Assembly: GCF_000234095.1 (NCBI RefSeq)
Contig: NZ_JH376799.1
Coordinates: forward strand, 401,217-465,216
Reading direction: 5' to 3'
DNA: 64,000 nt
Source: Centipeda infelix ATCC 43532
GTDB lineage: Bacteria > Bacillota > Negativicutes > Selenomonadales > Selenomonadaceae
This document shows, in pieces, positions 10,973-58,127 of the stretch. Position 1 is the first letter of the stretch, and each line of letters opens with the position of its first letter. A program made the translations under genes and the position numbers. The notes below the pieces were generated by a model. The model was not told the origin of the DNA. It saw nothing but the letters and a program-made list of their open reading frames with translations, and did not search any database.

Positions 10973-11064
10973 TTGCTCCTCCTCTAACGCTCACGCGAAC
11001 AATCCTATCACGGAATTTCTGCCGCAGGTCTCATCTACAGACTGAGACTCATTCTATTCTAGGT

Positions 11065-18466: not shown

Positions 18467-18557
18467 TGCTTTCTCCCCTTCATTACACATTGGAAAGAAT
18501 CCATCCCTGCAGTGCATGGCACTGCGTTCATCGGCTATGAAGTTTTCTCATCTTTTT

Positions 18558-40923: not shown

Positions 40924-40927
40924 GCCG

Positions 40928-42229
40928 TCACCTCCCCGCCGTGAGGAGCGCACGAATGCCGCCCACGAGATAGAGCGATCCCGCGACAACGAGCAGCGCA
41001 CCGCGTTCCCGTGCGCGCGCCCCCGCCTGTACAAGCCCCTCTGCCGCATCGCTGCAAGCGTGACTCTCAAGCCCCATCCCAAGCGTTACAGCGGCGACCA
41101 CGTCTGCGCTCGCCGCACGTTCCGAGTTTGGGCGCACAGTGATAACCGTATCTCCCGAGCGCAGGAGTGCGGCGAGCATCGCGTCGATATCCTTGTCCTT
41201 CAGGATGCCGAGCAGGAAAACGCGGGGCAGATCGGGAAAATACGCATCCAGTCCCGCACGCAGGGCGCACATCCCCGCAGGATTGTGCGCACCGTCGATG
41301 ACGACGGGCAGATTCTCCTGCGTGAGGATTTCAAACCGCGCGGGATGGCGCACTGTGCGCAGCCCCGTACGCAGTGCGGCCTCTGTAAAGCGCGCATCCT
41401 CACGCTCGAGGAGCGTTGCCGCCATGATGACGAGCGCGGCGTTCTCCGCCTGATACACCCCCGCGAGCGCGAGATCGAACGGCTCCGGCGCACGGCAGAG
41501 AGCGGAGTGGAAGGCAACGCGCTGCCCCCCCTCCTGTGGAAAGAGGAGTTCGGCCGAAAAGTCCTCGCCGCAGACAAAGACATCCGCACCGAGTTCCTCC
41601 GCACGCCGCTCGATGATCTCCAAGGGCTCTCCCGTCGCTGCCGTGATGACGGGCACGCCCTCCTTGATGATGCCCGCCTTGTGCTCCGCGATGCCCGCGA
41701 GCGTTCCGCCGCAGCGGTCGGCGTGATCCATCGCCACATTTGTAATGATCGTGAGCGCAGGTTCGACGACGTTCGTCGAGTCGAGCAGTCCGCCAAGCCC
41801 CGTCTCAATCACAGCGATCTCGACCTGCTCCTCAGCAAAGTAGAGAAACGCAAGCGCGGTCAGAGCCTCGAACTGTGTCGGGTGCTCGTGCCCCGCCGCG
41901 ACCATTTCGTCTGCAGCCGTGCGCACGCGCGTGAGGAGTTCTGCAAACCGCTCCTCGGAAATATCGTGCCCGTCCACGCTCATACGCTCCGTATAGGAGA
42001 TGAGATGCGGCGAGAGATAGCGCCCTGCACGGACATCCGACGCACGGCAGACGGCATCCATCATCTGCGTGACAGAACCCTTGCCGTTCGTGCCCGCAAT
42101 GTGAATAGTCGCATAACATCGCTCTGGATTCCCCAAACGTGCACAGAGCTCCTCCATGCGTGCAAGTCCGAGACGAATGCCGAACGTATTCAGTTCATCG
42201 AGATAGAGAAGGGCTTCCGCATAGTTCAT
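40928..42229 (-). CDS. folC: Bifunctional folylpolyglutamate synthase/dihydrofolate synthase
   Basis: Mur-ligase family enzyme adding glutamate to dihydropteroate or tetrahydrofolate. The 433-residue protein has the P-loop IAGTNGKGSV (about residues 46-55), the folate-loop region YLSPHLISYTERM, ETGLGGLLDSTNVV and the second-domain VIDGAHNPAGM. ATG at 42229 has GAGGTG 5 bases upstream; a GTG two codons earlier overlaps it. Ten bases after the valS stop, so co-transcribed; valS-folC is a common Firmicute order. Confidence 0.94.
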   Translation of the reverse strand: MNYAEALLYLDELNTFGIRLGLARMEELCARLGNPERCYATIHIAGTNGKGSVTQMMDAVCRASDVRAGRYLSPHLISYTERMSVDGHDISEERFAELLTRVRTAADEMVAAGHEHPTQFEALTALAFLYFAEEQVEIAVIETGLGGLLDSTNVVEPALTIITNVAMDHADRCGGTLAGIAEHKAGIIKEGVPVITAATGEPLEIIERRAEELGADVFVCGEDFSAELLFPQEGGQRVAFHSALCRAPEPFDLALAGVYQAENAALVIMAATLLEREDARFTEAALRTGLRTVRHPARFEILTQENLPVVIDGAHNPAGMCALRAGLDAYFPDLPRVFLLGILKDKDIDAMLAALLRSGDTVITVRPNSERAASADVVAAVTLGMGLESHACSDAAEGLVQAGARARERGALLVVAGSLYLVGGIRALLTAGR

Positions 42230-45045: not shown

Positions 45046-46149
45046 TCAGCTCCTGCACGAAAGGATCACTTCGCAAATACGATCCACCGCAGCCTCCTCC
45101 AGATCCGGATAGATCGGCAGTGTCAGCACGCGATCCGCAACAGAACGGGCAACGGGGGTCTGTTCCACATCATACTTGCCGCGGAAGCAGTCAAACGTAT
45201 TTGTGAGCGGATAGAAATACTTGCGGCTGTGTATATCCGCCCGTTCCAATGCAGCAAAGACCTCGTCGCGTGTGCTGCCAAATGCCTTTTCATCGAACAC
45301 AACGGGGAAATAGGCATAGTTCGGCACGACATCCGCCTGCGGTGTGTTCAGCTGCACGCCGTCGATGCCTTCCAGCCGTTCGCGATAGCGTTCCGCAACG
45401 ACCTTGCGCCGCGCGATATCTTCCTCTACATGACGCAGATTGCACAGCCCCATCGCCGCACAGAACTCGTTCATCTTCGCATTCGAGCCGACACCGTCGA
45501 CACACTCCGCATCGCGAATGCCAAAGTTCTTCAAGCGATACAACTTCCTTCCAAGCTCCTCATCGCGAAAGCATGCCGCGCCGCCCTCGATGGTGTGAAA
45601 GACCTTCGTCGCGTGGAAACTGAAGCACGCAACATCCCCGTACACTGCCGTACTCTTTCCCCGATAACGCACGCCGAAGGAATGTGCGGCATCGTAGATC
45701 ACCTTCAGCCCATATCTGCGGGCAATGCGCTCGATTTCCTCCACGCGGCAGACATTTCCATAGACATGGACAGGCATAATGGCAGATGTGCGCTCTGTAA
45801 TCAAGAGCTCAAGCTTCGTTACATCCATCGTATAGTCATGCGGGTCAATGTCGCAGAATACCGGCTCCAATCCGTTGCGTACAATCGCGTGCGTCGTCGA
45901 GGCAAACGTGAACGGTGTCGTGATGACCTCACCCGAGAGATTCAGCGCCTGCAGCGAGAGTTCGAGTGCCATGTGCCCATTCGTAAAGAGCTCGACCTGC
46001 GCAGCGCCGAAAAAGTTCCGCAGGGCTGATTGAAACTCCTGATGCTTTGCCCCCATATTGGTCAGCCAGCGCGACTGCCAAATATCGCGAATCTCTGCGA
46101 TGTACTCCTCCATCGGCGGCATCGACGACCGCGTCACCATGATGCTCAT
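45046..46149 (-). CDS. DegT/DnrJ/EryC1-family PLP aminotransferase
   Basis: Sugar-aminotransferase family (ArnB/WecE/PseC type), 367 residues. The PLP lysine is Lys182 in FSFHATKVFHTIEGG; DAAHSFG carries the Asp that contacts the pyridinium ring, and VHVYGNVC is typical. The C-terminus FDCFRGKYDVEQTPVARSVA fits the family. Such enzymes usually aminate keto-sugar nucleotides; no sugar-nucleotide dehydratase is in the window, so the substrate may come from elsewhere or be unusual. GGAGG precedes the ATG at 46149, which lies inside the end of the glycosyltransferase zone (stop at 46167). Last gene of the glycan locus. Confidence 0.9.
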   Translation of the reverse strand: MSIMVTRSSMPPMEEYIAEIRDIWQSRWLTNMGAKHQEFQSALRNFFGAAQVELFTNGHMALELSLQALNLSGEVITTPFTFASTTHAIVRNGLEPVFCDIDPHDYTMDVTKLELLITERTSAIMPVHVYGNVCRVEEIERIARRYGLKVIYDAAHSFGVRYRGKSTAVYGDVACFSFHATKVFHTIEGGAACFRDEELGRKLYRLKNFGIRDAECVDGVGSNAKMNEFCAAMGLCNLRHVEEDIARRKVVAERYRERLEGIDGVQLNTPQADVVPNYAYFPVVFDEKAFGSTRDEVFAALERADIHSRKYFYPLTNTFDCFRGKYDVEQTPVARSVADRVLTLPIYPDLEEAAVDRICEVILSCRS

Positions 46150-46166
46150 ATCCCGCCTCCCCTCGA

Positions 46167-47786
46167 TCAATCCTCGTCCATCTGCAACACAAGCGTCGTG
46201 TCAATATCAAAATCAATTCGACAATCCTTGCGGAGGGCCTCCGCCATCGCTGCATACACACATAGAAGATCGTGGAACTCCGTCCCTGCCCAGAGCTCCG
46301 GAATCATCGCAGCAATCCGAAGGACTTCGCTCGCCATCTTGAGCCATTCCACAATTGCCTTGCGCCGCGTACCGAGATCATGGAGGAACAGATCTCGCTC
46401 CATCGCCTCACGGATCGTCAGTGCCCAACAGATGGCAGCACAGACGCGGGTTCTGTACTGCAGCTGCTCATTGCCCGGATGCATGCGAAATTTACTGAGC
46501 GGTGTCGGAATATACATCATATTGCCCTGACTGAGCAATCGAAGCCACATGGGGAAATCCGATATGAGATACTTCCCCTCTTTTCCCGAAAAGCCAAAAT
46601 CATGTCCATCCCGCAAAAACTCCTTTCGGAGCAGGGCCGTGGTCGGCTCTCCAATAAAATTTGTTAAACTAATGAGGATTCCTGCCCCAATTTGTTCGCC
46701 GCTGAACTTCTTGCATTCATTCGTGATCGGTGCCGTCGTGTCCGTATCCGGCAGCTTGTTGCCGTTCACATCCATACATTCCCGATACGAGGTGACAAGA
46801 CTAAGATCGGGATGTGCAAAGAAACAGTCCATCATGACCGCAATCTTATCCGGCAGGAAGAGATCATCGTCCATCAGCCAGTTGACATAGTGTGCATCCG
46901 CGTTGTCATAACTGCGGGCACGTGTCCAATTCTCCGGTGCCCCATAGGAGGGATGATGTTCGTAGTGAATGCGCGGATCGCTTGAGAAATCGCGCCGCAT
47001 CATGTCCGCCGTCTCCGTGTTATGCGAGTTGTCCGTGATGAAAATGTCCAGATTGCGATAGGTCTGTGCAAGCACGCTCTCAAGAGCGAGACGGAAGTAG
47101 TGCGGCCGCTCAAACGTTGGAATAATGATCGAGACGAGCGGATAAATCTCCGATGAATACGTGTCGAGAAACACCTCTTGGCTCGCTTCATCCACTGCAC
47201 ACGCCCGCTTACGTGTGAGCAGCCACGGATCATCCTGCTGCGGCAGGACCGTACGATACCCCTTGCGGCGAAATTCGATGCACTGCGCTTCCGCAAAAAA
47301 ACAATCGCCATGAAAAAGGTCACTGCGCCACGGGATATCGTACTGTGTGGCGATGAGATCTGGGCTCACCGCCATGACCTCCTCCGTCGCCCCCTCGACC
47401 GCCGCTCCATGAAAGGAGGTATCATCGGTATAGAGCAGTCTGCCCTTGAGCATCGGCGATGCGCCAAGCTCCCCCGATGTCGAGAGCTGTGCTGTGCCAA
47501 CGAGCCCCATAATGCCGATTGCGGGATCCTCCGCAAATACGCGCAGCATCTCCGCAAAGAAATTCAGCCGCAAGAGGATGCTCCCCGCCGACAAATAGAC
47601 CTTATACTTCGCATCGCTCTCGTGCATCGCACGCTGATAGGCAGCAGCGACATTCCCATCGACAGATACCTCAATCAGCTCCACGGTAAATCCCGATGGC
47701 ACATCAATTGCATCGAGATACGAACGGATGGCAGAGCCTCCGCCCACATCGCACTGTGCAATGACTGCGATTTTCCTGTCATTCAT
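46167..47786 (-). CDS. Two-part GT-A family glycosyltransferase
   Basis: A 539-residue protein. The N-terminal 190 residues resemble a nucleotide-sugar transferase-like domain without a clear DxD (KYKVYLSAGSILLRLNFFAE, then GIMGLVGTAQLS). The second part (from about residue 205, VSIIIPTFERPHYFRLALES) is a classical GT2 domain with NWLMDDDLFLPDK as the DxD region and an acceptor half ending KFRMHPGNEQ. It may transfer one or two sugars. ATG at 47786 has only a weak GGGA site. Downstream of the CatB-like acyltransferase with a 14-base gap. Confidence 0.82.
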   Translation of the reverse strand: MNDRKIAVIAQCDVGGGSAIRSYLDAIDVPSGFTVELIEVSVDGNVAAAYQRAMHESDAKYKVYLSAGSILLRLNFFAEMLRVFAEDPAIGIMGLVGTAQLSTSGELGASPMLKGRLLYTDDTSFHGAAVEGATEEVMAVSPDLIATQYDIPWRSDLFHGDCFFAEAQCIEFRRKGYRTVLPQQDDPWLLTRKRACAVDEASQEVFLDTYSSEIYPLVSIIIPTFERPHYFRLALESVLAQTYRNLDIFITDNSHNTETADMMRRDFSSDPRIHYEHHPSYGAPENWTRARSYDNADAHYVNWLMDDDLFLPDKIAVMMDCFFAHPDLSLVTSYRECMDVNGNKLPDTDTTAPITNECKKFSGEQIGAGILISLTNFIGEPTTALLRKEFLRDGHDFGFSGKEGKYLISDFPMWLRLLSQGNMMYIPTPLSKFRMHPGNEQLQYRTRVCAAICWALTIREAMERDLFLHDLGTRRKAIVEWLKMASEVLRIAAMIPELWAGTEFHDLLCVYAAMAEALRKDCRIDFDIDTTLVLQMDED

Positions 47787-47800
47787 AGCGGCTTTCCCTT

Positions 47801-48757
47801 CTATCGCCAAAGTCCATGTCTCTGCAAAAATGCAGCCGGATCGTTCATGACATCCAGATTGTCGTGGATCTTCTCTAGCGGCCAGTCCCACCAGCGCAGA
47901 TGCAGGAGGGCTTCAATCATCTCGGGTGGAAAACGGTACTTGATGATCTGCGCGGGGTTGCCGCCCACAATCGCATAGGGCGGTACATCCTTCACAACGA
48001 CACTGTCCGCCGCAATGACAGCGCCATCCCCGACCGTCAGAACCCCGCTGTCGCCCGCCGCTTTCAGTCGGCTGCCGCGTCCGATCCAAACATCCGAGCC
48101 AATGTGTACCCCACCCGCAGGACTCTTATACCCCAGAGAGGAACACCAATCCTCCGTATCAAAGTCCATGCAGCCGGGATCGTATGTGGTGACACGGCGA
48201 TAGTCATGTTGGTTATTTAGTCCAACCTCAAGAACAATATGCGGACCAAAGGACGTGTAGTTCCCGACGCGCACCTCCTGCGCCCCGCTGCGATAGCCCC
48301 ACTCGATTCGCCCTCCGACTCTGCTCTTTACCCCAACCGAAACCATACGTGAACCGTACGACCAGACGCGTGGAATCTCCGCATGCGTCGCATCCAAGAA
48401 GTTTTCTTCCCGATCCGTAAGTTCCGCCTGAAGTGCCCCATAGCCAACATTTTCCGCGAAGAGGCGCGGCACATCCAGCCCCGACATCCGAAAGATGCGC
48501 CCGTCGAGCAATGACGCACGCGGAATCTCGGGGGCATACTGCCTGAGATATGCGAGCATCGGATAGAGCTTCGAGCAGGAGAGAAGCACACGCTGCACGC
48601 TCACCGTCTCCGACGCCCCCTCGATCGAAAGCCCCTGTCCCGTGCAGGTTGCATAGCCGACGATCGAAAGTGTACCATCCTGCTCCGCACGCCGATACCG
48701 AGGAACAAGCTCCTCATCCAAGTCGCCGCCGAGAACGACAAGCACCTTCGTACACAT
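47801..48757 (-). CDS. CatB-type hexapeptide-repeat acyltransferase with N-terminal extension
   Basis: The C-terminal 190 residues are a left-handed beta-helix acetyltransferase of the CatB/Vat group: VRVGNYTSFGPHIVLEVG, NNQHDYRRVTTYD with the catalytic-type His, IGSDVWIGRGSRLKAAGD and the closing VGGNPAQIIKYRFPPEMIEA. The first roughly 120 residues (VLVVLGGDLDEELVPRYRR...) are an extra domain that I do not recognise, perhaps a substrate-binding Rossmann-like part as in PglD. 318 residues from the ATG at 48757; an ATG two codons earlier is possible. Expected to acylate a sugar of the surface glycan. Confidence 0.85.
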   Translation of the reverse strand: MCTKVLVVLGGDLDEELVPRYRRAEQDGTLSIVGYATCTGQGLSIEGASETVSVQRVLLSCSKLYPMLAYLRQYAPEIPRASLLDGRIFRMSGLDVPRLFAENVGYGALQAELTDREENFLDATHAEIPRVWSYGSRMVSVGVKSRVGGRIEWGYRSGAQEVRVGNYTSFGPHIVLEVGLNNQHDYRRVTTYDPGCMDFDTEDWCSSLGYKSPAGGVHIGSDVWIGRGSRLKAAGDSGVLTVGDGAVIAADSVVVKDVPPYAIVGGNPAQIIKYRFPPEMIEALLHLRWWDWPLEKIHDNLDVMNDPAAFLQRHGLWR

Positions 48758-48775
48758 GGGCATATCCCCTTCCGT

Positions 48776-49975
48776 TCAAATTGCCGAAATCACACGGCTC
48801 ATGGTCCGAATGAGATCAACACCGTCCCAGACGAGCGCAAAGTCCATCGTGCGCCCCATCGGCACGATGCGGTCAACACCTGCAGGACGCATGGCGAGCA
48901 CCGCCCGCAGGAGACTGTCCCGTTCCACGCCGTAATACGAAAGCGTCTGGCACGAAATGCCGCACAGCGGTCGTATCTCTGCAAGTTCCTGTGCCCGATA
49001 TTCAATAAAGAAGCCGCTTCCTGCCTTGTATGCTGCAAGTTCCTCCGTCAGCTCCGCCACACAGACGCGCGTGATCAGATTGTCCTCCATAGGTATTTGC
49101 TGCGCTGCAGCGTGCACGCCGAGCCGATAGAGCTGGGTCAGCTTATCCACCGCCTGAACGCCTTGCAGCGTGTAGCGCTCCCTCACAAGCGTATGCAGGG
49201 TGCTCCAAAACACCTCCTGCGCCGCCTTGACCTTCTCTGCTGTGCCGAGCCATACGACAAAGTGCGGCGCGGTACACGCATTTTGATCGCTGAGGTACGT
49301 GTCATTGTAGAAATCCTGCGCGATCCGCCCCTTTTTCTCTGCAGCGAGATAGGCAGGGGCATCAATCACGGCAAGCGAATGACGGTCAGCAAACGTGATT
49401 TCATTCGCGCGCGGAGCAAGGGGCGCGCGGCGTATCGCTTCAATCGTCGCATCGCCGCCCCAGATCACGCGTGTATTTGCAAGCCGTGAGTAGTGCTCGG
49501 TTACGTCCTGCTCGTGTCCGTAACGGACGAAGAGGAAGTAGTGGAGAAGTGCAGGGAAGTCCACCAGCGTCTCCGCGAAAATCCGACAGAGAACATCGAC
49601 CTGCGGGAAGTCTTTCGACGGCAGACGCACAATGCTTGCATTTCCCGCAAGAAATGCCGCAAGGCACGAGTAGGCGAAGTTCACAGCTACATTCGAGGGT
49701 GCGATGTGAAAGACAATGCCGCGTCCAACCCGATTCCTTTCCGCATCATAGAGCTTCTGCATCTGACGCAGCGCGGCGGGGCGGCACCAAAAGCCGAGTG
49801 TTACGATATCGGGGTACGCCTTTGCCTCCGCATCTGCGAGAATCCTTGCCGAGAATGCGGCAAGAAAAGCGACCGCCTCCTCCGAAAAAATTGGAAGCGG
49901 GCGCACATCCACCATCCGCGCCTCGCTTTCCGCACCGCCGAGCACATAGGTCACGCCGTCAAAATGCTGCCGCAT
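48776..49975 (-). CDS. LuxC-like acyl reductase, copy 1
   Basis: Member of the LuxC acyl-CoA/acyl-protein reductase family, which reduces an activated acyl group to an aldehyde with NADPH; an aldehyde-dehydrogenase-like fold of about 399 residues. The putative catalytic Cys is in SDQNACTAPHF, and FHIAPSNVAVNFAYSCLAAF and GNASIVRLPSKDF match the family. It is paired with LuxE-like copy 1, overlapping it by 17 bases. I prefer ATG at 49975 over the ATG at 49981 because copy 2 has ATA at the latter place and the same 17-base overlap. In luminous bacteria LuxC works with LuxE and LuxD; no luciferase genes are present here. Confidence 0.85.
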   Translation of the reverse strand: MRQHFDGVTYVLGGAESEARMVDVRPLPIFSEEAVAFLAAFSARILADAEAKAYPDIVTLGFWCRPAALRQMQKLYDAERNRVGRGIVFHIAPSNVAVNFAYSCLAAFLAGNASIVRLPSKDFPQVDVLCRIFAETLVDFPALLHYFLFVRYGHEQDVTEHYSRLANTRVIWGGDATIEAIRRAPLAPRANEITFADRHSLAVIDAPAYLAAEKKGRIAQDFYNDTYLSDQNACTAPHFVVWLGTAEKVKAAQEVFWSTLHTLVRERYTLQGVQAVDKLTQLYRLGVHAAAQQIPMEDNLITRVCVAELTEELAAYKAGSGFFIEYRAQELAEIRPLCGISCQTLSYYGVERDSLLRAVLAMRPAGVDRIVPMGRTMDFALVWDGVDLIRTMSRVISAI

Positions 49976-51038
49976 AGGCATCGCTGCACCCCCTCAGTTC
50001 CGCTTGCTTCAGCCTGCCGAGCACCTTGAAATACTTCCCCTTGCGCCCGCACGGGCAGTCATCCTCACCGATAAGAACACCCTCGTCCTCCGTTAGGAGC
50101 GCGTGCCCAGGGTATGACTCCGGCAGGAGTGAGACCACCTCGATGATGCCGCGCTCACCGAAGGCTGCGGGCGAGAAGTCCAACGGACGGCGCACAATGA
50201 CATCGGCATACGTACTCGTGTGAAGATGTCCCTCCGCACATTCGAGATGAATGCAGCCCGTCTGCTCGACCATACCGTAGTAGTCCGCAACATCAAGATT
50301 GCCGCAGGCCGTACGCAGCGCCGCACGAAACGCCGCAGGCGTAACCGCCTCAGAGGCGAGCTTTTTCCAGCCGCCGCCATGAACCAGTATGGCATTCGAG
50401 AGATCAAGACGCTCGCCCGCCGCCTGCAGCGCCTTGTAGAAATGCTGCCACACCATAAATGTGAAGCCAAAGAGCAGGATGCGCTCGCCCGCGTGCTCTG
50501 CGAGAAATGCGCGAATGGCATCCAGCTGGAGCTCCATTGCGTCATTCAGCGCATAGATCTTCTTGCGCCCGAAGAGCGAAAATCCGAGGATGCCCGCCCC
50601 GCGTGCCGAGAACATCGCACGATTCTTGACGACGGAGGGACAGTCGAGGATGAGCATTGGCATACGGCTGCCCCCGATCCGATCGGAGACAATGCGCACG
50701 AGCGTCTTCTGCTGATTTGTTGCTGTCCCGCGATCGAGGAAAATGCGCGATACCTGCTGCCCCGTTGTCCCCGACGAGGTCATCGTCTTGAACACGTCCT
50801 CCTCCGCCACACTCCGCAGCTCCATCTCCTTGAAAAGCCGCACAGGCAAAAAGGGAATATCCTCCACCGAATGAACGCCCGCAGCAGAAAAACCAATCGT
50901 CTCCATCATGCGCGCATAGGGCGCGCAATGCGCCCTATGCTGCTCCGTCAGACGCAAGAGCTCCTCATATATGAGTTGCTGCTTCTCCTCACGTGTTACG
51001 CCAAACGGCGGCAGAGCAAGCACTTCCTCATACGTCAT
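49959..51038 (-). CDS. LuxE-like acyl-protein synthetase, copy 1
   Basis: ANL-related acyl-protein synthetase of 359 residues. LuxE activates a fatty acid with ATP and passes it through an own cysteine to LuxC. The adenylate motif is MTSSGTTGQQVSRIFLDRGT, YYGMVEQTGC corresponds to the ANL A5 region, and GEDDCPCGRKGKYFKVLGR lies near the end. The C-terminal RGCSDAY places a Cys 8 residues from the end, where the acyl-accepting Cys of Photobacterium LuxE is found. ATG at 51038 follows GGAGCAG and overlaps the ligase gene by 11 bases. Likely one functional unit with LuxC copy 1. Confidence 0.85.
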   Translation of the reverse strand: MTYEEVLALPPFGVTREEKQQLIYEELLRLTEQHRAHCAPYARMMETIGFSAAGVHSVEDIPFLPVRLFKEMELRSVAEEDVFKTMTSSGTTGQQVSRIFLDRGTATNQQKTLVRIVSDRIGGSRMPMLILDCPSVVKNRAMFSARGAGILGFSLFGRKKIYALNDAMELQLDAIRAFLAEHAGERILLFGFTFMVWQHFYKALQAAGERLDLSNAILVHGGGWKKLASEAVTPAAFRAALRTACGNLDVADYYGMVEQTGCIHLECAEGHLHTSTYADVIVRRPLDFSPAAFGERGIIEVVSLLPESYPGHALLTEDEGVLIGEDDCPCGRKGKYFKVLGRLKQAELRGCSDAYAAAF

Positions 51039-52440
51039 AATACTGCTCCAATTCGCGATAGACCGTCTTGCCCGAAGCATTTTTTGGAATCTCGGCAATA
51101 CACTTTGCCGTAAACGCCGTGTGGTGCAGCCCGAGCTTTGTACTCAAAAACGGCACAATCTTGGGAACAAGTACCTCCTGCGTCACAAAGACATAGAGTT
51201 GATCGTCAACCCCCGCACACGCAACCTCAACTTCACCAAACTGCCGACGGAGAATATGCTCGACCTCCTGCAAATTCGTCCGCTTGCCGAACATCTTCAA
51301 AAAGCGCCGCTTGCGACCGACGATGGTATAGTACCCATCCGCATCGCGCTGCGCAAGATCGCCCGTCTCATAGCGTCCATGACGCTCATCGCCCCGTGCG
51401 AGATCCGCGCCGCTCTCCGCATAGCCGAGCGTGACATTTGCGCCGTAGTAGACCAGTTCACCGACCGTATCCGTGTCTGTGATTTCCTTTCCCGCCTCGT
51501 CGGCGAGCGCGAACCTGCCGCCCGGGATCGCAATCCCCATCGCCCCGACTTTTTCCAGTGCATACTGCGGCGGCAGATACCCCATACGTGCCGTTGCCTC
51601 TGCCGCACCGTACATCACGACGAATTTCTTCCCATACGCATCTGCATAGGCAGCAAACTCGCTGTGCAGCTCGGGATCGAGCTTGCCGCCCGCCTGCGTC
51701 AGCGTACGGAGCGCGGGGAGATCCATGCGGAAGAAGCGGAGCCGCTTCAGCATCGCGTACGTATAGGGGACACCGGAGAGGTTTGTGACTTCTTTTTCCC
51801 GCATAAGCTGCCAAAAACTGCGGTCAAAGAGCGTTTTCTCCGTCACAACAACGGAAGCACCGACAGCGAGGTGCGTATTCAGAACAGAAAGCCCATAGAC
51901 ATAGTGCAACGGCAGATTCGTAACAGCACGTTCATCTTCGTGAAGATCCAAATACTGCACAATGGACTCTGTATTTGCCTTGAGATTATCATAGCTCTGC
52001 CGCACCAGCTTCGGGCTGCCCGTCGAGCCCGATGTTGTCATGAGGAGCGCGAGATCTGCGTGGAGCGGGTATGGATACTGCTCCCCCATATCGTAAAGGA
52101 CACTGCCATCGATGTGTAAAACCTGCGTATAACGATTCAAAAAATCGAAATGCGCTTCCTCTGCAAAAATATAGGCCGGTGAATACTGCTCCAAAAGGCT
52201 TCGGAACAGGCCCTCATCCAAATCCTTATCGACCATAACGGGAACAATCCCATGATTGATAAAGCCCACATATGCCGCAATCGTTACAAGTGTATTGCTG
52301 CATAGCAAAAATACCAACGAGCGCGTTGGTATCATCTCCGCAATTTGTTCTGATGTATCAAGCAGTTTGCTGTATGCCCAAACCTCATTTTCCATGAACA
52401 GCGCGGGCATCTCGGCAAAAGGTTTCAGATCGAAAAACAC
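51028..52440 (-). CDS. AMP-dependent acyl ligase (ANL superfamily)
   Basis: Adenylating enzyme of about 470 residues, predicted to activate a carboxylic acid and load it onto the acyl carrier protein encoded immediately upstream. Motifs: TTSGSTGSPKLVRQSY (A3), MYGAAEATARM (A5), RYETGDLAQRDADGYY (A7), GRKRRFLKMFGKRTN (A8) and the C-terminal lysine motif NASGKTVYRELEQ (A10). All catalytic elements are present. The GTG at 52440 has GAGG upstream; start choice is less certain than for its neighbours. Substrate could be a fatty, hydroxy or amino acid. Confidence 0.87.
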   Translation of the reverse strand: MFFDLKPFAEMPALFMENEVWAYSKLLDTSEQIAEMIPTRSLVFLLCSNTLVTIAAYVGFINHGIVPVMVDKDLDEGLFRSLLEQYSPAYIFAEEAHFDFLNRYTQVLHIDGSVLYDMGEQYPYPLHADLALLMTTSGSTGSPKLVRQSYDNLKANTESIVQYLDLHEDERAVTNLPLHYVYGLSVLNTHLAVGASVVVTEKTLFDRSFWQLMREKEVTNLSGVPYTYAMLKRLRFFRMDLPALRTLTQAGGKLDPELHSEFAAYADAYGKKFVVMYGAAEATARMGYLPPQYALEKVGAMGIAIPGGRFALADEAGKEITDTDTVGELVYYGANVTLGYAESGADLARGDERHGRYETGDLAQRDADGYYTIVGRKRRFLKMFGKRTNLQEVEHILRRQFGEVEVACAGVDDQLYVFVTQEVLVPKIVPFLSTKLGLHHTAFTAKCIAEIPKNASGKTVYRELEQYYDV

Positions 52441-52452
52441 GGATACAGCCTC

Positions 52453-52692
52453 TTAAAATGTGATGTTGTAATTCTTCGACAGGATCTCTTTTCCATGATC
52501 GAACGAATTAAAGTCAATGATGTCATCGGTGTCCATCATGATATCAAAGGCATCCTCGATGGCAGCCACCAACTCCATGTGTCCGACCGAATCCCACGCA
52601 CTGATGGACTGATATGTGAGCCCCTCCACATCGTCCTTGGAAACGCCAAGGTTGTCAGAAAATATCTGCGTGTACTTCTCCAAATTCGTCAT
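52453..52692 (-). CDS. Dedicated acyl carrier protein
   Basis: A 79-residue ACP. Ser35 in AWDSVGHMEL is the phosphopantetheine site. The helix III region (DTDDIIDFNSFDHGKEIL) is of the type found in ACPs encoded in surface-polysaccharide and flagellin-glycosylation loci rather than fatty-acid synthase ACPs. AGGAGAAAATACC precedes the ATG. It lies between LuxC copy 2 and the ANL ligase, so it probably carries the acyl group that the ligase, reductases and dehydratase act on. Confidence 0.93.
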   Translation of the reverse strand: MTNLEKYTQIFSDNLGVSKDDVEGLTYQSISAWDSVGHMELVAAIEDAFDIMMDTDDIIDFNSFDHGKEILSKNYNITF

Positions 52693-52717
52693 GGTATTTT
52701 CTCCTTCTCTGCAAACG

Positions 52718-53914
52718 TTATTGGTTGTTAATTTTTCTGGAAAGGGTCAACGGCAGATCATAACCGTCCCAAACAAAGGACAGATCAAGACTGTGCCCTA
52801 CGGGAACGACTCGATCTCCTCCCCTCAGCCCCTTTTGAAAGATCATCTCCTTGATTTTATCATGCAGATGATCTCCCAGATACGTAACGGTCTGACACGA
52901 CTTGTCAAGGACGCACGCCAGTTCATCCAAGCTTTCTAAACTATATTCGAGAAAGTACCCGCAATTCCCTTTATAATCCATCACACCCTCATACAGTTTC
53001 GGCAGCTCGATCCGCACCAACGCATTATTCTGCCGAATCTCCTCGATGCCGGGACAGGCATCCGCGAACACTGCTGTTTGCAGCAGCTTTTCCGACCCGC
53101 TAATATCGCTCAGTCGATACTCTTGATTTACTTTTTTTTGAAGGCTCTCCCAAAAAAGCTTTTTTGCCTGATCGACGCGTTTTCCTGTCCATAGAACCAG
53201 CCGCGTTGAACTGCAGGCATTCTGATCGGAATAGTAAGTATCAAGATAAAAATCTCCGGCAACAATTTGATGGTCCATCTGCAAATATGCATCCGCATCA
53301 ATCACAGCAATCGAATACCGATCCGCAAACCCCAGCTCCACGCATCGGGCTTGTGTGGAGTTTCTTTTTATATCTTCGATCGTTTTATCGCCCCCCCATA
53401 TCATTCTGAGATCACAGATCGATGACAGCACGCGCGTCGCCTCGTTGTCATGTGCATATCGTACAATGCAGATGTAGGGACGCAAATCTTGAAACTCCCT
53501 CTGTAAAAGCATGCTGACCGCCTCACACAGCAGATCAACCTGTTCAAATTGTTTGTTGGATACGCGGATCACAGATGCATTTCCGGCGGTCAACGCATAG
53601 ACAAGGGAAACCGCAAACTGCACGGGAATATTCGAGGGCGCGATATGGAACGCCATCCCCCAGCCGATTCTTCTGCCAAAGGCTTCATATTTGGCGGCCT
53701 CTTTTTTTATGGATGCCTTGCGAAGCCAAAAAGCAAAGGCGGCGATATCCCCATACGCCTTCGCTTGGGGATCACGGAGCAGCACCTCGGATAATCTCCC
53801 CAGAAAGGATACGACATCTTCTGAAAACATCGGCAGTGCCCGTGTCTTCTCCATATTGCAGAGGACATCCATATTTCCGACTAAAAAGTCGATGTCCCTA
53901 TATATGTGCTCCAT
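52718..53914 (-). CDS. LuxC-like acyl reductase, copy 2
   Basis: Paralogue of the gene at 48776, 398 residues, with moderate similarity throughout: ALPMFSEDVVSFLGRLSEVL, FHIAPSNIPVQFAVSLVYAL and the putative catalytic Cys in SDQNACSSTRL. Expected to reduce an acyl thioester to an aldehyde. ATG at 53914 overlaps LuxE copy 2 by 17 bases, exactly as in pair 1. Base composition of this pair is visibly more AT-rich than pair 1, so the two pairs have different histories or ages. Upstream of the ACP gene by 25 bases. Confidence 0.85.
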   Translation of the reverse strand: MEHIYRDIDFLVGNMDVLCNMEKTRALPMFSEDVVSFLGRLSEVLLRDPQAKAYGDIAAFAFWLRKASIKKEAAKYEAFGRRIGWGMAFHIAPSNIPVQFAVSLVYALTAGNASVIRVSNKQFEQVDLLCEAVSMLLQREFQDLRPYICIVRYAHDNEATRVLSSICDLRMIWGGDKTIEDIKRNSTQARCVELGFADRYSIAVIDADAYLQMDHQIVAGDFYLDTYYSDQNACSSTRLVLWTGKRVDQAKKLFWESLQKKVNQEYRLSDISGSEKLLQTAVFADACPGIEEIRQNNALVRIELPKLYEGVMDYKGNCGYFLEYSLESLDELACVLDKSCQTVTYLGDHLHDKIKEMIFQKGLRGGDRVVPVGHSLDLSFVWDGYDLPLTLSRKINNQ

Positions 53915-54974
53915 AGGTATCGCTGCACCCCCTTATTTCCGCCTGTTCCACCCTGCCTAGGATACGGATGTATTTCCCTTTTCTTCCGCACGGGCAGTCA
54001 TCCTCCCCCTCGATGATACCTTCATCCTCCGTGAGAATTGAGTGCCCAGGGTACGAATGCGGCAGCGAAGACAGGAGTTGAATGAACCCGCGCTCTCCTA
54101 TTTTGCACGGGGAAAAATCACGAAAACGGCGTATCATCACATCCGAATAGATGCTGGCATGAAGGTGTCCATATTCGCATGCAGCATAGATACATCCTGT
54201 CTGTTCTGCCATTCCATAGTGATCCACATAATGTTTTATTCCACAGACAGCCTGCCCCATTTTCTGGAAATCTTCATTGGAAATTTTCAGATTAACTAAC
54301 TTTTTCCAACCACCTGCCGTAAGCAGATAGGCGTTCGACAAATTGGCGGTTCTTCCTGCTTGCTTTAATCGCCGGAAAAGATGCTGCCAGACCATAAAAG
54401 TGAAACCAAAAATAAGGAATCGATCAGCTCCGTGTGCTTGAATAAAGTCATCCAGTACATCTTCCTTGAGCTGCATCTGTTCATCCAGTGCAAAAACCAT
54501 GCGTCTGGCGGCAAATTCCAGCCCCATGATCGTCGCACCTCTCGTGGTAAAGTTTCGTCGATCCTTGATCACCGCATCCGAATCAATCACGAGCATCGGC
54601 AGTCTGCGGTTCCCGATAAAGTCTCCCAACAGTCTTAGCAGCACCTTCTGCTGCAAAACAGCCGTTTCTCGATCCAAGTAAATCCTTGACTGTTTTTGAC
54701 CGCTTGTTCCCGACGACATCATCACCTTGAAAACAGCATCATCTGATATACTCTTCATCTGCAATTCTTTGAATGCACGAATGGGAAGAAACGGCACATT
54801 CTCCAGTGTTTTGACACCAGCTGGATCATAGCCGATGGCATCCAAATACCTTTGGTACGGAATGCAGCGATGCCGATGCCATTCGGTCAATTCTCGCATA
54901 GCAGACAATAAAAGCTTTTCCTTTTCAGCTTTCGGTAATGCATACGGGGCAAGCTTGTGAAAGACTTCTAGCAT
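53898..54974 (-). CDS. LuxE-like acyl-protein synthetase, copy 2
   Basis: Paralogue of the gene at 49959, 358 residues. Shared motifs: MSSGTSGQKQSRIYLDRET, FLIFGFTFMVWQHLF, HYGMAEQTGCIY, GEDDCPCGRKGKYIRILGR and RGCSDTY with a Cys 8 residues from the C-terminus. Expected to activate and hand an acyl group to LuxC copy 2. The ATG at 54974 lies 15 bases after the NeuB stop. Confidence 0.84.
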   Translation of the reverse strand: MLEVFHKLAPYALPKAEKEKLLLSAMRELTEWHRHRCIPYQRYLDAIGYDPAGVKTLENVPFLPIRAFKELQMKSISDDAVFKVMMSSGTSGQKQSRIYLDRETAVLQQKVLLRLLGDFIGNRRLPMLVIDSDAVIKDRRNFTTRGATIMGLEFAARRMVFALDEQMQLKEDVLDDFIQAHGADRFLIFGFTFMVWQHLFRRLKQAGRTANLSNAYLLTAGGWKKLVNLKISNEDFQKMGQAVCGIKHYVDHYGMAEQTGCIYAACEYGHLHASIYSDVMIRRFRDFSPCKIGERGFIQLLSSLPHSYPGHSILTEDEGIIEGEDDCPCGRKGKYIRILGRVEQAEIRGCSDTYGAHI

Positions 54975-54989
54975 ATCTCCATCCCTGCA

Positions 54990-55991
54990 CTATTCCAGAT
55001 CATCCGACAGAAGCATCTCATCGGCTTCCATATCGCGTTTCACTTTCTTGCCAACCACACGCGCAAACTCATTGGGAGGTATTCCATCCCCCGGACGTTT
55101 TGCGTCAAGATCTTCCATCGAAAGCACATGCCCCGCAGGAAGATGCTTCGCGGCAACAATGCTCCTTCGCATCTTTACCCGCTGTGCAAGCTCCTCTTCC
55201 GTCACGCTTCTCTCATAAGCCCCCAGCGCCGACGCAACATTTCGACATTCCCGCACCAACTTCTCCATTTGTTCCGGCTCGGTCGCCATCTGATTATCCC
55301 AGCCAATCATGCTGCTGTCGAGGGTAAAATGCTTTTCGATCATCACTGCCCCAAGTGCCGTTGCGGCACACGCAGCTTCACTTCCTATGGTATGATCCGA
55401 ATATCCGACGCTGCATTCTGGGAACTCCTTTTTCAGCATGCGCATATTATTCAGATGAACATGTTCATGCGCCACGGGATACAGTGAAACACAATGAAGA
55501 ATACAAATCTGATGATTGCCTCTGCCCTCAATCGCACGAACAGCCGCCCTGATTTCGTCAAGCACTGCCATTCCCGTAGAGAGTACAATCGGAACCATAC
55601 GCCCTGCAATATACTCCAAGAAAGAAATGTTGTTGATGTCCATGGATGCGATCTTGATATACGGAACGTCACACGCATCAATCAAGAGATCAACCTCACT
55701 GCGGGAATAAGGTGTGGATGCGAAATCAATGCCGCTCTCCCGGCAATAGGAGGACAGTTCCACAAGCGCCTCCGGCAAAAGTGCAAAGCCCTTCACCATG
55801 CGCCGCGCGATCGGGTTCTTTGTGTAATATGTCTTGCTGTAGAGAGAGGTCTCCGTCCATGACTGGAATTTGACCGCATCACAGCCACACGCCTTCGCCG
55901 TATCGATCATTTTTTTTGCGACGTCAACCTTTCCCCTGTGGCTGGAATTCAGCTCAGCCACAATATACGGGCGCGCTTTATCCAAGTACAT
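54990..55991 (-). CDS. NeuB-family nonulosonate synthase with C-terminal SAF domain
   Basis: PEP-dependent synthase of the sialic/pseudaminic/legionaminic acid family, which condenses PEP with the open-chain aldehyde of an N-acetylhexosamine. The 333-residue protein has the TIM barrel (IVAELNSSHRGKVDVAKKMI, DAVKFQSWT, STGMA, VGYSDHTIGSEAA, IEKHFTLD) and the SAF/antifreeze-like domain from about residue 274 (MRRSIVAAKHLPAGHVLSME). Neither NeuA (CMP activation) nor NeuC/PseG-type genes are in the window, so the exact product is open. It overlaps the SDR gene by 14 bases. The LuxC products nearby are aldehydes, raising the possibility of a non-sugar acceptor. Confidence 0.9.
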   Translation of the reverse strand: MYLDKARPYIVAELNSSHRGKVDVAKKMIDTAKACGCDAVKFQSWTETSLYSKTYYTKNPIARRMVKGFALLPEALVELSSYCRESGIDFASTPYSRSEVDLLIDACDVPYIKIASMDINNISFLEYIAGRMVPIVLSTGMAVLDEIRAAVRAIEGRGNHQICILHCVSLYPVAHEHVHLNNMRMLKKEFPECSVGYSDHTIGSEAACAATALGAVMIEKHFTLDSSMIGWDNQMATEPEQMEKLVRECRNVASALGAYERSVTEEELAQRVKMRRSIVAAKHLPAGHVLSMEDLDAKRPGDGIPPNEFARVVGKKVKRDMEADEMLLSDDLE

Positions 55992-56784
55992 TCCACAGGC
56001 CTCCTTCGCTTAAATTCAGTTTCATCGTCACCCCCAATGCTTGAGATTTTCGACCTCCATCAACTACAATATTTTGCCCAGTAACGAACGATGCCATATC
56101 CGATGCCAAGAATAAAATTACGTTTGCAACTTCTTCCGGAGCCCCCTGCCGTTTCAATGGGGTCTCTTGAAGTATTTTCTCCTTGAGCGCATCGCTGCGC
56201 GCGTGCCACATATCCGTATCAATAAACCCGGGAGAAACCGCATTCACCCTAATGCCGTACTTCCCGAGTTCGAGCGCCATCGTCTGTGTTGAAAAAAGCA
56301 CAGCTGCTTTGCTGCTCCCATATGCGAGCCCGCCTTCCACCGCTTCCATCCCGGCAACCGAGGCCACATTGATGATCGCGCCCTCTCTATTTTTCATCAT
56401 ATACCGTGATACAAGCTGAGCCAACTGCACCTGTGACATAAAATTCGTATACATACAATCTTCAATTACCTTGATTGTGGTCATCGAAAATAATTGTTCC
56501 ACGGAGACTCCCGCATTATTGACCAAAACATCAATGCGCTTTTGGCTGTTTCCAATGGTTTTAACTGCTTTTTTGACTGCGTCCGCATCTGTGACATCAA
56601 AATAAAGCAGATGAATTTTCGTTGCATACTTCTCCGATAATGTCTTAATATTTTTTTCAAATTCTTCCGTCTGCCGTCTTGCACAAGCCCAAATGCAGGC
56701 ATGATGTTCGGCAAATTTCTGTACCGTTGCCCATCCAATGCCCCGATTCGCTCCTGTAACGACCGCAACTTTACCGTTCAGCAT
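55978..56784 (-). CDS. Short-chain dehydrogenase/reductase, FabG-like
   Basis: NAD(P)H-dependent reductase of 268 residues resembling 3-oxoacyl-ACP reductases. Cofactor motif TGANRGIGWATV, NNAGVS, and the catalytic Ser-Tyr-Lys set around NVASVAGMEAVEGGLAYGSS with YGSSK. The C-terminus is about 20 residues longer than usual FabG. Next to the FabZ-like gene (overlap of 14 bases) and the ACP genes, so a role in 3-oxoacyl-ACP reduction is likely; action on a sugar keto group is the alternative. Confidence 0.85.
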   Translation of the reverse strand: MLNGKVAVVTGANRGIGWATVQKFAEHHACIWACARRQTEEFEKNIKTLSEKYATKIHLLYFDVTDADAVKKAVKTIGNSQKRIDVLVNNAGVSVEQLFSMTTIKVIEDCMYTNFMSQVQLAQLVSRYMMKNREGAIINVASVAGMEAVEGGLAYGSSKAAVLFSTQTMALELGKYGIRVNAVSPGFIDTDMWHARSDALKEKILQETPLKRQGAPEEVANVILFLASDMASFVTGQNIVVDGGRKSQALGVTMKLNLSEGGLWNVLG

Positions 56785-57262
56785 TTTTCTCCACTCTCTT
56801 CGGTCGATATTTGTAAAATACAGAGGGAATCAAAAGTGTCACTTCTGCCTCACAGGCGAGTTCACCATCCACATACCCTCTAGACACACCTTTTCCGATT
56901 CCTCTCGTATACGATTTTACTTCTGCAACAATATCTAGGCGGTCCCCAGGACGAATTTTTTTAATGAATTTGACTTTACATTCTACACCTTCAATATTGA
57001 TATCCTCGACCCCATCCATCGTATTGAGTGCAATCGTCAGCATTTGACACAGTGCTTCCATCTGAACGGCACCAGGCATAAGAGGCTTCCCTGGATAATG
57101 TATGGGAAAAAACCACTCATTATTGGTCAGGTTTTTATATCCCTTGGCATATTTCCCAGGCACACATTCCGTTACTCGATCAATATAAAGAAACGGATAG
57201 CGGTTCGGCTCGTATTTCTGGAGCTCATCACTATCAAATGATAAAATTTTTTCTTCTGCCAT
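56771..57262 (-). CDS. FabZ-like 3-hydroxyacyl-ACP dehydratase
   Basis: Hot-dog dehydratase of 163 residues. The catalytic His55 (IHYPGKPLMPGAVQ) and Glu69 (QMEALCQM) of FabZ are both kept. The N-terminal motif usually read as HRYPFLL is NRYPFLYIDRV here, with Asn in place of His. The protein is longer at the C-terminus than housekeeping FabZ. Expected to dehydrate 3-hydroxyacyl-ACP, probably on the ACP of this locus. No ketosynthase gene accompanies it. Confidence 0.85.
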   Translation of the reverse strand: MAEEKILSFDSDELQKYEPNRYPFLYIDRVTECVPGKYAKGYKNLTNNEWFFPIHYPGKPLMPGAVQMEALCQMLTIALNTMDGVEDINIEGVECKVKFIKKIRPGDRLDIVAEVKSYTRGIGKGVSRGYVDGELACEAEVTLLIPSVFYKYRPKRVEKNAER

Positions 57263-57284
57263 ATTGGTGTAACCTCGCTCTCAT

Positions 57285-57941
57285 CTATTTCCGAAATACC
57301 CTATGCTCATCATTTCCCTTTGTTACTCTGGCAGGGTTCCCAAGAACAGTACATCCATCCTCCACCGACCGAAAAACCATGGAGCCCATTCCGACGATGA
57401 CGTTATCTCCTAAATTTGTGCGTTCCTTCATCGAGGAATTCAGACCGATAAACGTATTTTCACCGACGGTAGAGCCGCCACCAACCGTTGCCATCGGACA
57501 TACAACGGTATTCCTTTTCAGATGTGCATCATGTCCGACGACTACATGGAATCCCAAAAGACAGTTTTCCTCCATGATGGCATTGGCCGACACGATGGAC
57601 TGTGCATTGACAATACACCCTGGGGCAATCTGCGCCGTAGGTGAAACTATGGCAGAAGGGTCAACAAGGGTTGCCAGCTTATAGCCGCTTTCCTCAATGC
57701 GTTTCAGCAGAGAAGCACGTGCCGCAGGTTCCCCGACGGCAATAACAAATTCAAATTCTTCCGCTGCGATTGTTTCACACGAGGAAAAATGAACGCGCTC
57801 TGTCCCGTAATACGGCGCTTCTTCCTCAAAATCATCAACGAGATAAATGTTAGAATATCTGCAGGATAAAGCATTCACGCGCTCTGCCAAGTCATAGACC
57901 TCGATGGCAGCACCGCTTGCTCCATATATAAATAAAATCAT
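57285..57941 (-). CDS. PglD/NeuD-like sugar acyltransferase
   Basis: A 218-residue transferase with the N-terminal Rossmann-like domain of PglD/NeuD (MILFIYGASGAAIEVYDLAE) that binds the sugar nucleotide and a C-terminal hexapeptide beta-helix (PSAIVSPTAQIAPGCIVNAQ, VVGHDAHLKRNT with the catalytic-type His, and VLGNPARV at the end). Such enzymes N- or O-acetylate amino sugars, commonly in sialic or pseudaminic acid loci. It is the first gene of the locus on the transcribed strand. No convincing promoter was found in the 80 bases upstream. Confidence 0.9.
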   Translation of the reverse strand: MILFIYGASGAAIEVYDLAERVNALSCRYSNIYLVDDFEEEAPYYGTERVHFSSCETIAAEEFEFVIAVGEPAARASLLKRIEESGYKLATLVDPSAIVSPTAQIAPGCIVNAQSIVSANAIMEENCLLGFHVVVGHDAHLKRNTVVCPMATVGGGSTVGENTFIGLNSSMKERTNLGDNVIVGMGSMVFRSVEDGCTVLGNPARVTKGNDEHRVFRK

Positions 57942-58022: not shown

Positions 58023-58127
58023 TTAGGACAAGCCATTCGTGTATTCGCACAAGAAAGAGCTGCCTCCGCACGAAAACAGCTCGTAAAGCGCTCCATACGG
58101 ACACAGCTCATGATATTCCTCCGCCAT
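58023..58127 (-). CDS. Candidate 34-aa small ORF downstream of fhs
   Basis: A short ORF starting MAEEYHELCPYGALYELFSC, with three cysteines, in the otherwise empty gap 57942-58140. A GAGGAGAG site 7 bases before the ATG is well placed, and it starts 13 bases after the fhs stop. There is no recognisable family and the length allows chance occurrence. A second, Cys-rich ORF of similar length overlaps it in another frame. Confidence 0.35.
   Translation of the reverse strand: MAEEYHELCPYGALYELFSCGGSSFLCEYTNGLS

Follow-up and report, generated by a model that had tools for sequence, protein, structure and literature searches.

We analysed a window of 64,000 nucleotides from Centipeda infelix ATCC 43532 (contig NZ_JH376799.1, positions 401,217 to 465,216), in which 13 open reading frames (ORFs) on one strand form a locus at 45046-57941 (-), contig-scale position C3:446262-459157. 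In the order of transcription, they encode PglD, FabZ, FabG, NeuB, LuxE2, LuxC2, an acyl carrier protein (ACP), an ANL ligase, LuxE1, LuxC1, a CatB-like acyltransferase, a double GT2 glycosyltransferase and DegT. We found that this locus is real and conserved. Sets of LuxE, LuxC, ACP and ligase were already known, whereas we found no earlier account, in the accessible literature, of their tie to interchangeable carbon-carbon (C-C) enzymes. The gene content, the catalytic motifs, the co-occurrence of the genes, a separate clade of NeuB and the alternation of NeuB with transketolase beside one lineage of LuxE2 were all directly seen. We propose, with about an even chance of being right, that the locus builds an unusual surface-glycan building block by first making an aldehyde and then extending it.

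The search with LuxE2 covered 84,980 species and gave 148 stretches with the pattern, 134 of which encoded a relative; the best 80 correspond to 77 distinct loci. LuxE2 itself matched 15 of 100 relatives (E<=1e-10). We annotated 92 loci with profiles built from the genes of the window and from neighbouring genes. A locus was counted as covered when it extended at least 5 kb past LuxE on both sides, which was true of 49 of the 90 LuxE loci and not of the other 41. LuxC was present in all 49 covered loci, ANL in 48, ACP in 46, FabG in 40, DegT in 33 and PglD in 25. A C-C enzyme lay within 8 kb of LuxE in 39 of the 49. The C-C enzymes of the covered loci were a split transketolase pair (27 loci), a JanthE-like thiamine diphosphate (ThDP) enzyme (8) and a LuxCE-type NeuB (10, 6 of them with ThDP), and no covered locus had both transketolase and the LuxCE-type NeuB. 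The sister loci belong to Lachnospiraceae, Oscillospiraceae, Selenomonadaceae, Enterobacterales, Bacteroidales and others. ANL and ACP were usually single in a locus regardless of the number of LuxCE pairs.

As a control, we used 20 loci (19 of 20 kb and one of 13 kb) around NeuBs without a link to LuxE, taken from the first twenty genomes of the list. LuxE, LuxC, ANL, ACP and FabZ were each found in none of these 20 loci. Transketolase and ThDP were found in one each, FabG-like genes in 5, PglD in 6 and DegT in 19. Since the gene set recurs across phyla and is absent around the 20 control NeuBs, it is more than chance. An earlier note on this DNA had suggested looking for conserved co-occurrence of LuxC, LuxE, ACP and NeuB, and conserved co-occurrence was found in the covered LuxE loci. 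The note had also called the gene combination unusual. Two LuxCE pairs are a minority form and not unique, with two LuxE in 16 of the 90 LuxE loci. As a side observation, several loci (e.g. L041, 7877-8572) have a recurrent hydrolase of the metallo-beta-lactamase fold next to ANL or LuxE, perhaps a thioesterase.

The result of phylogenetic analysis of LuxE (FastTree, local support; L032 gives two rows, and L025 and L026 are close) showed that the seven LuxE2 that follow NeuB formed a clade (1.0). This clade was sister to 13 LuxE (0.811), and the joint node of the 20 had a support of 0.905. Among the 13 sisters, 12 follow TktC and one has no called neighbour. A LuxE2-LuxC2 pair of one lineage follows NeuB in part of the loci and TktN-TktC in other loci, and FabG stands ahead in either arrangement. 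Because a single LuxE2 lineage stands behind either NeuB or transketolase depending on the genome, the lengthening enzyme is exchanged. Meanwhile, the LuxE1 of seven Selenomonadaceae loci formed a clade (1.0), and these loci keep LuxE1-LuxC1 and DegT, and ANL where the contig extends. The cassette that precedes this block is NeuB with LuxCE2 in this genome (G000), in G002 and, on separate contigs, in G008; it is ThDP with NeuB in G006 and in Mitsuokella L041, and transketolase in G005 and G011.

NeuB joins phosphoenolpyruvate (PEP) to an aldehyde, and transketolase joins a ketol to an aldehyde. What the alternating enzymes have in common is the need for an aldehyde acceptor or for a 2-oxo acid obtainable from an aldehyde. 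We tentatively extend this to a modular logic of surface glycans, to which we give somewhat less than an even chance. LuxE and LuxC would turn an acid into an aldehyde, an exchangeable C-C enzyme would lengthen or graft it, and strains would swap this cassette beside a fixed block of ligase, LuxE, LuxC and aminotransferase; the NeuB clade would consist of PEP synthases for non-sugar aldehydes. In this tentative scheme, which we hold a little less likely than not, the exchangeable enzyme would be a split transketolase, a NeuB dedicated to a non-sialic role, or a NeuB together with a YerE-like carboligase. We also tried a strict rule of one LuxCE pair per extension step and rejected it, as it fails on the counts over all 90 loci, incompletely covered ones included. 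Among the 16 loci with two LuxE, 11 had one transketolase-or-NeuB route and 5 had two; among the 74 loci with one LuxE, 30 had no such route, 42 had one and 2 had two.

In a tree of 29 rows, the 20 LuxCE-linked NeuBs formed one clade with a support of 100/99. The nine NeuBs outside it include eight from LuxE loci and one from the second NeuB locus of this genome. The NeuB of the window scored below the curated models (319 bits against the TIGR03569 cut-off of 399.65, and 257 against 340.25). With residue numbers that we take to be those of the meningococcal enzyme, mapped by alignment, its metal, PEP and substrate positions are kept except for Asp instead of Glu at position 118. It has M117, D118, W231 and D232. 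At position 117, 19 of the 20 LuxCE-type enzymes have Met and one has Gln, compared with 24 Phe and 6 Gly among 30 control NeuBs. At position 231, 8 of the 20 have Trp and the other 12 have Met, compared with 21 Val and 9 Pro among the 30. Furthermore, all 8 Trp231-type enzymes are in loci without ThDP, and 11 of the 12 Met231-type enzymes are in loci with ThDP, the exception being L074. In L074 and in 7 of the 8 Trp-type rows, FabG is immediately upstream of NeuB; in the remaining Trp-type row, L024, the gene was not called as FabG. The earlier note had the aldehyde handed to NeuB, and this gains sequence support from a NeuB clade tied to LuxE and LuxC and from the exchange of NeuB with transketolase beside one LuxE2 lineage.

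The locus could also be read as an ordinary nonulosonic acid pathway (pseudaminic, legionaminic or sialic) with odd neighbours. The enzyme is indeed a member of the NeuB family, is 34% identical to the other NeuB of the genome, keeps the catalytic positions and is accompanied by a NeuD-like PglD. However, no cytidine monophosphate (CMP)-transferase, uridine diphosphate (UDP)-sugar dehydratase or hydrolase is among the 13 genes, and the genome keeps a separate pseudaminic-like locus (L120, C3:541001-561000) with its own NeuB. When the genome's own CMP-transferase family protein was used as a probe, a relative was found in L044 and in 7 of the 8 LuxE loci that carry a canonical NeuB, L059 being the exception. 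In the 19 loci whose NeuB is exclusively of the LuxCE type, several of which are short, this single-sequence probe found no relative. In addition, PF02348 itself is missing from the LuxCE loci in G000, G002 and G006, for which coordinates could be matched, and the only PF02348 protein over the cut-off in the genome lies outside the locus, at C3:384587. We rejected the canonical sialic or pseudaminic pathway on the NeuB clade, its residue signature, the separate pseudaminic-like locus and the pattern of CMP-transferases in LuxE loci, and consider this reading very improbable. Given the separate locus, the LuxCE locus is an addition to the pseudaminic-like pathway and not a copy of it.

Both LuxE proteins contain the SSGT(T/S)G adenylation loop and the C-terminal GCS. 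Matching to solved structures covered the LuxE2 and LuxC2 pair. The only solved match of LuxE2 at E<=1 was the LuxE of 7xc6, and that of LuxC2 was the LuxC of the same structure; the Cys of GCS and the catalytic Cys were aligned, respectively. Across the loci (rows partly redundant), 106 LuxE were 320 aa or longer, and in 100 of them GCS was found in the last 40 residues. The remaining 6 are LuxE-LuxC fusions of 763-859 aa with an internal GCS (L023, L025, L026, L029, L044 and L062). DQxAC was found in all 98 LuxC of at least 360 aa (rows again partly redundant), and the adenylation-loop search pattern was not matched in 3 of the 106 LuxE (L034, L081 and L086). In luminescence, the relay cysteines of LuxE and LuxC carry and reduce the acyl group, and by analogy the cysteines of these proteins probably do the same. 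The role of acyl-to-aldehyde reductases that the earlier note gave to LuxE and LuxC thus has sequence support in both conserved relay cysteines and in the six natural fusions.

Under the proposal of an aldehyde that is then extended, LuxE would adenylate a carboxylic acid and take the acyl group onto its own C-terminal cysteine, and LuxC would reduce this thioester to an aldehyde. From this aldehyde and PEP, NeuB would then form a 4-hydroxy-2-oxo acid lengthened by three carbons, whose new 2-oxo group may be reduced by the FabG next to the C-C enzyme. The other LuxE-LuxC pair would work on the opposite side of the NeuB step, either supplying the aldehyde or reducing the acid product of NeuB. 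The ANL ligase probably loads ACP, and the two may carry the acid for FabZ chemistry and/or pass it to a hexapeptide acyltransferase. This acyltransferase (PglD or CatB-like) would put the acid on the amino sugar made by DegT, and the GT2 protein, whose homologues in L054, L098, L101, L102 and L105 are 71-76% identical, would transfer the decorated sugar to a surface polymer or protein.

The amination of the aldehyde by DegT, as suggested in the earlier note, was not supported. The best solved relative of DegT is the DesI-type 2po3 (201 bits), which we take to be a dTDP-4-keto-sugar aminotransferase (dTDP, thymidine diphosphate), and the NCBIfam DesI model gives 288.5 bits, below its cut-off of 650. 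The genome also has an RmlB-type gene (480 bits against a cut-off of 365), which could make the sugar substrate. From the DesI-like DegT and the RmlB-type gene, the likely product is a dTDP-4-amino-4,6-dideoxy sugar. A role in making an amino sugar is therefore more likely than that of an aldehyde aminase. Together, the DesI-like DegT and the NeuD/VioB-like PglD suggest that the acid built here, carried by ANL and ACP, may become an N-acyl group.

A second possibility is a route to C-branched sugars, in which a 2-oxo acid made by NeuB is joined to a keto sugar by a YerE/JanthE-like ThDP enzyme, as in yersiniose and erwiniose. The ThDP enzyme lies directly upstream of NeuB in 10 rows (one a duplicate), and JanthE (8rph) was the best match of two sister ThDP enzymes (331 bits in L101 and 373 bits in L042, compared with at most 231 for acetolactate-synthase entries). 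For ErwE, a relative of JanthE, the preferred donors are 4-hydroxy-2-oxo acids with four to six carbons (PMC12247030). Since this is the class of donor expected of NeuB with a small aldehyde, the NeuB product may serve as a donor for ThDP enzymes. A ketoreductase for a C-4 branch has been described in paulomycin (PMC4753412). However, neither ThDP nor transketolase is found in this locus or in L021, L022, L023, L024 and L098, and the NeuB of the window is of the Trp type of ThDP-free loci and not of the Met type. The route would need, in this genome, a ThDP enzyme acting from another locus. The genome does have a related ThDP gene (C3:555583-557382), which scores 709 bits with the ThDP profile and shares 32% identity with the enzyme of L101, but it is in the separate pseudaminic-like locus. 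On these grounds we consider a C-branched product unlikely. The same pseudaminic-like locus includes a fusion of 537 aa (glycosyltransferase-28-like plus formyltransferase), two DegT and a Polysacc_synt_2 protein, and it is possibly a pseudaminic variant with a carboligase.

Third, ACP, the ligase, FabG, FabZ and LuxCE may make the fatty acyl or fatty aldehyde group of a liposugar, with NeuB being incidental. This is the published reading of flagellin islands with these genes (PMC4875605, PMC7874193), and the family names fit it. Nevertheless, the locus has no ketosynthase, FabH-like genes occur in only some of the annotated LuxE loci, and this reading does not account for the link of these genes with a special NeuB, with transketolase and with ThDP. 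Thus, we regard a fatty group as quite improbable.

It should be noted that several points weigh against the proposal of an aldehyde that is extended by exchangeable enzymes. Every substrate, the sequence of the reactions, what ACP and ANL do and where the glycan goes are our inferences. The loci were picked by closeness to LuxE2, are partly near relatives, and many are ended by their contig, so the numbers given above are counts and not rates. Ten of the 49 covered loci (L037, L044, L055, L057, L076, L077, L089, L094, L107 and L109) lack a C-C enzyme up to 8 kb from LuxE, although one of them, L057, has a transketolase pair at a greater distance. Among the loci not fully covered, transketolase occurs together with the LuxCE-type NeuB in L083 and with ThDP in L029 and L086. 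In L066 and L099, a single LuxE accompanies two transketolase pairs. As the product of transketolase has no carboxylate, a simple repeat of reduction and extension misfits some cassettes. The Met-type NeuB of L074 adjoins FabG and breaks the clean Trp/FabG split. Position 118 is Glu in 29 of the 30 controls but Asp or Glu within the clade, and is no clean marker. Finally, no CMP-transferase relative was found in L059 or in the canonical-NeuB locus L120 (20 kb). Its absence alone therefore does not separate the two types of NeuB, and we dropped it as a marker of the new type and relied on the clade and the signature instead.

All 13 ORFs are open, and they overlap or are closely spaced (Table 1). 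The gene number, identities and overlaps reported in the earlier note were all confirmed by ORFs and by Pfam and NCBIfam matches. All 13 proteins match a family, with ACP barely below its cut-off. As the note also stated, luciferase, ketosynthase, NeuA and NeuC, and LuxD as well, are not among the 13 genes by Pfam/NCBIfam annotation.

Table 1. Genes of the LuxCE locus, with positions in the window
Product	Position	Strand	Evidence
DegT/DnrJ/EryC1 aminotransferase, DesI-like	45046..46170	-	PF01041 337 bits
Glycosyltransferase, two GT2-type domains	46167..47891	-	PF13712 153 bits and PF00535 58 bits
CatB/Vat-like hexapeptide acyltransferase	47801..48763	-	NCBIfam: 105 bits with Vat and 97 bits with CatB, far under either cut-off
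LuxC1 acyl reductase	48776..49981	-	PF05893 85.5 bits; DQNAC with catalytic Cys
LuxE1 acyl-protein synthetase	49959..51098	-	PF04443 163 bits; SSGTTG loop, C-terminal GCS
ANL (AMP-forming) acid ligase	51028..52440	-	PF00501 147.5 bits; adjoins ACP
Dedicated acyl carrier protein	52453..52692	-	PF00550 (PP-binding) 20.5 bits, cut-off 20.8; Ser in WDSVGHM
LuxC2 acyl reductase	52718..53914	-	PF05893 70 bits; DQNAC
LuxE2 acyl-protein synthetase	53898..54974	-	PF04443 158.5 bits; C-terminal GCS
NeuB-like PEP-condensing synthase, LuxCE-linked clade	54990..55991	-	PF03102 258 bits and SAF 47 bits
FabG-like SDR (short-chain dehydrogenase/reductase) ketoreductase	55978..56784	-	PF13561 218 bits; paired with NeuB
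FabZ-like dehydratase	56771..57262	-	PF07977 77 bits; His55/Glu69 dyad
PglD/NeuD/VioB-like hexapeptide acyltransferase	57285..57941	-	TIGR03570 160.7 bits, cut-off 160.8; PF17836

The locus is flanked by housekeeping genes, with valS and a Mur-ligase-type (folC-like) gene downstream and FTHFS, FolD, UbiA, UbiD and TatC upstream. The G+C content is 47.5% in the part from ACP to PglD and 56.0% in the part from DegT to ANL, compared with 58.9 and 61.3% in the flanks. The low G+C of the NeuB-side cassette is consistent with import. We compared the valS-FTHFS interval in this genome and nine relatives of the same genus (G001-G009), and found that the gap varied. The smallest, less than 0.1 kb, was that of G008. 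G001, G004, G005, G007 and G009 have gaps of about 2.5-3.1 kb, and the gap is 12 kb in G003, 13.2 kb in G000 and G002, and 23 kb in G006. LuxCE loci occupy the gap in G000, G002 and G006, and LuxCE genes were not seen in the short gaps or in that of G003. In G008, they are on two other contigs outside the gap, and its LuxE2 is 82% identical. The gap of G003 (L124, G003:C13:30500-43400) contains two sets of TonB receptor and ABC iron-uptake genes, and thus the site accepts unrelated cargo. The gap of G001 (L123) is a single gene with a sulfatase domain. Before PglD in our window, a remnant ORF of 34 codons (58023-58127), which reads ...CPYGALYELF... by eye, resembles the stretch CPYGEMYEVF of that sulfatase-domain protein. 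The LuxCE locus may have replaced a sulfatase-domain gene at this site. Elsewhere in the window, there are two very long ORFs on the (-) strand, 3891-10994 (2367 aa) and 12506-18517 (2003 aa), with no Pfam match at E<=0.001.

The neighbours of the locus give no pointer to lipopolysaccharide, flagellin or another polymer as the destination of the product. Matches to the flagellin N-domain are at C3:364596, 533629 and 539474, and two of these three genes are beside the pseudaminic-like locus. The nearest are 74-81 kb from the LuxCE locus, too far for the neighbourhood to place the glycan on flagellin. An O-antigen ligase/polymerase-like protein (Wzy_C, 74 bits) is encoded at 39577-41082 of the window, just beyond valS and the folC-like gene, and it may have a bearing on where the glycan ends up.

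Previous studies described flagellin islands with ACP, FabG, ligase, LuxE and LuxC and a GT2 glycosyltransferase after luxC (PMC7874193), and counted LuxE, LuxC1-4, CaiC, FabG and FabZ in many strains (PMC4875605). These sets were ascribed to fatty-acid synthesis, with no product given (PMC4875605 in 2016, PMC7874193 in 2021). The cluster of Dickeya zeae adds tktA, tktB, vioA and maa, and tktA-tktB were listed as sugar-biosynthesis genes (PMC7575072). In the open-access literature and few subscription papers, as far as their text was accessible, we found no publication that joins LuxE/LuxC to NeuB, transketolase or ThDP as one mechanism. The accessible open-access text likewise yielded nothing on a version with NeuB, on a separate clade of such NeuBs, on exchanged cassettes or on the logic of an aldehyde that is extended. 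PMC13317340, on pseudaminic acid in Clostridium, makes no mention of LuxE, LuxC, acyl carrier protein, transketolase, thiamine or NeuB, and neither PMC12342839 nor PMC9481697, as far as accessible, was relevant to this question. If the aldehyde does feed NeuB, transketolase or a YerE-like enzyme, unidentified glycan residues would become predictable and testable, and the NeuB branch would gain a new class of substrate. In addition, ThDP enzymes without a known native substrate would gain a likely donor, including JanthE, a YerE-like enzyme whose physiological substrates were not identified (PMC12188165).

The locus can be compared with five kinds of known systems. It has the same set of ACP, FabG, ANL ligase, LuxE and LuxC as the flagellin islands of Aeromonas group II, Enterobacteriaceae and Dickeya zeae. 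However, a NeuB of a special clade replaces transketolase here, there are two LuxCE pairs and there is no adjacent flagellin gene. With LuxC-LuxE of bioluminescence (7xc6), the proteins share both relay cysteines and the adenylating loop, but LuxD, LuxA and LuxB are not among the 13 genes, and the long-chain equivalog models score far under their cut-offs (40-42 of 750 bits for LuxC and 56-62 of 550 bits for LuxE). With the nonulosonic synthases NeuB, PseI and SpsE, the locus enzyme shares the NeuB and SAF domains and the catalytic positions, and it differs by its separate clade, its residue signature and a locus without a CMP-transferase. The sfmABCDE operon of Shewanella oneidensis encodes NeuB, an IlvB-like ThDP enzyme, a FabG-like protein, a methyltransferase and an ATP-grasp protein (PMC3765264). 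Its NeuB, ThDP and FabG-like genes are needed for a flagellin modification that includes a nitrogen-free C9H16O7 unit, and neither LuxE nor LuxC is among its five genes (PMC3765264). As this unit was not assigned to single genes in the accessible text (PMC3765264), we take it as a parallel only and not as a model of the product. Finally, the window locus has no ThDP enzyme of the kind found in the C-branching clusters of YerE-like carboligases (YerE, ErwE and JanthE), which is present in 8 of the 49 covered LuxE loci, whereas its sister loci place a JanthE-like enzyme directly before the same clade of NeuB.

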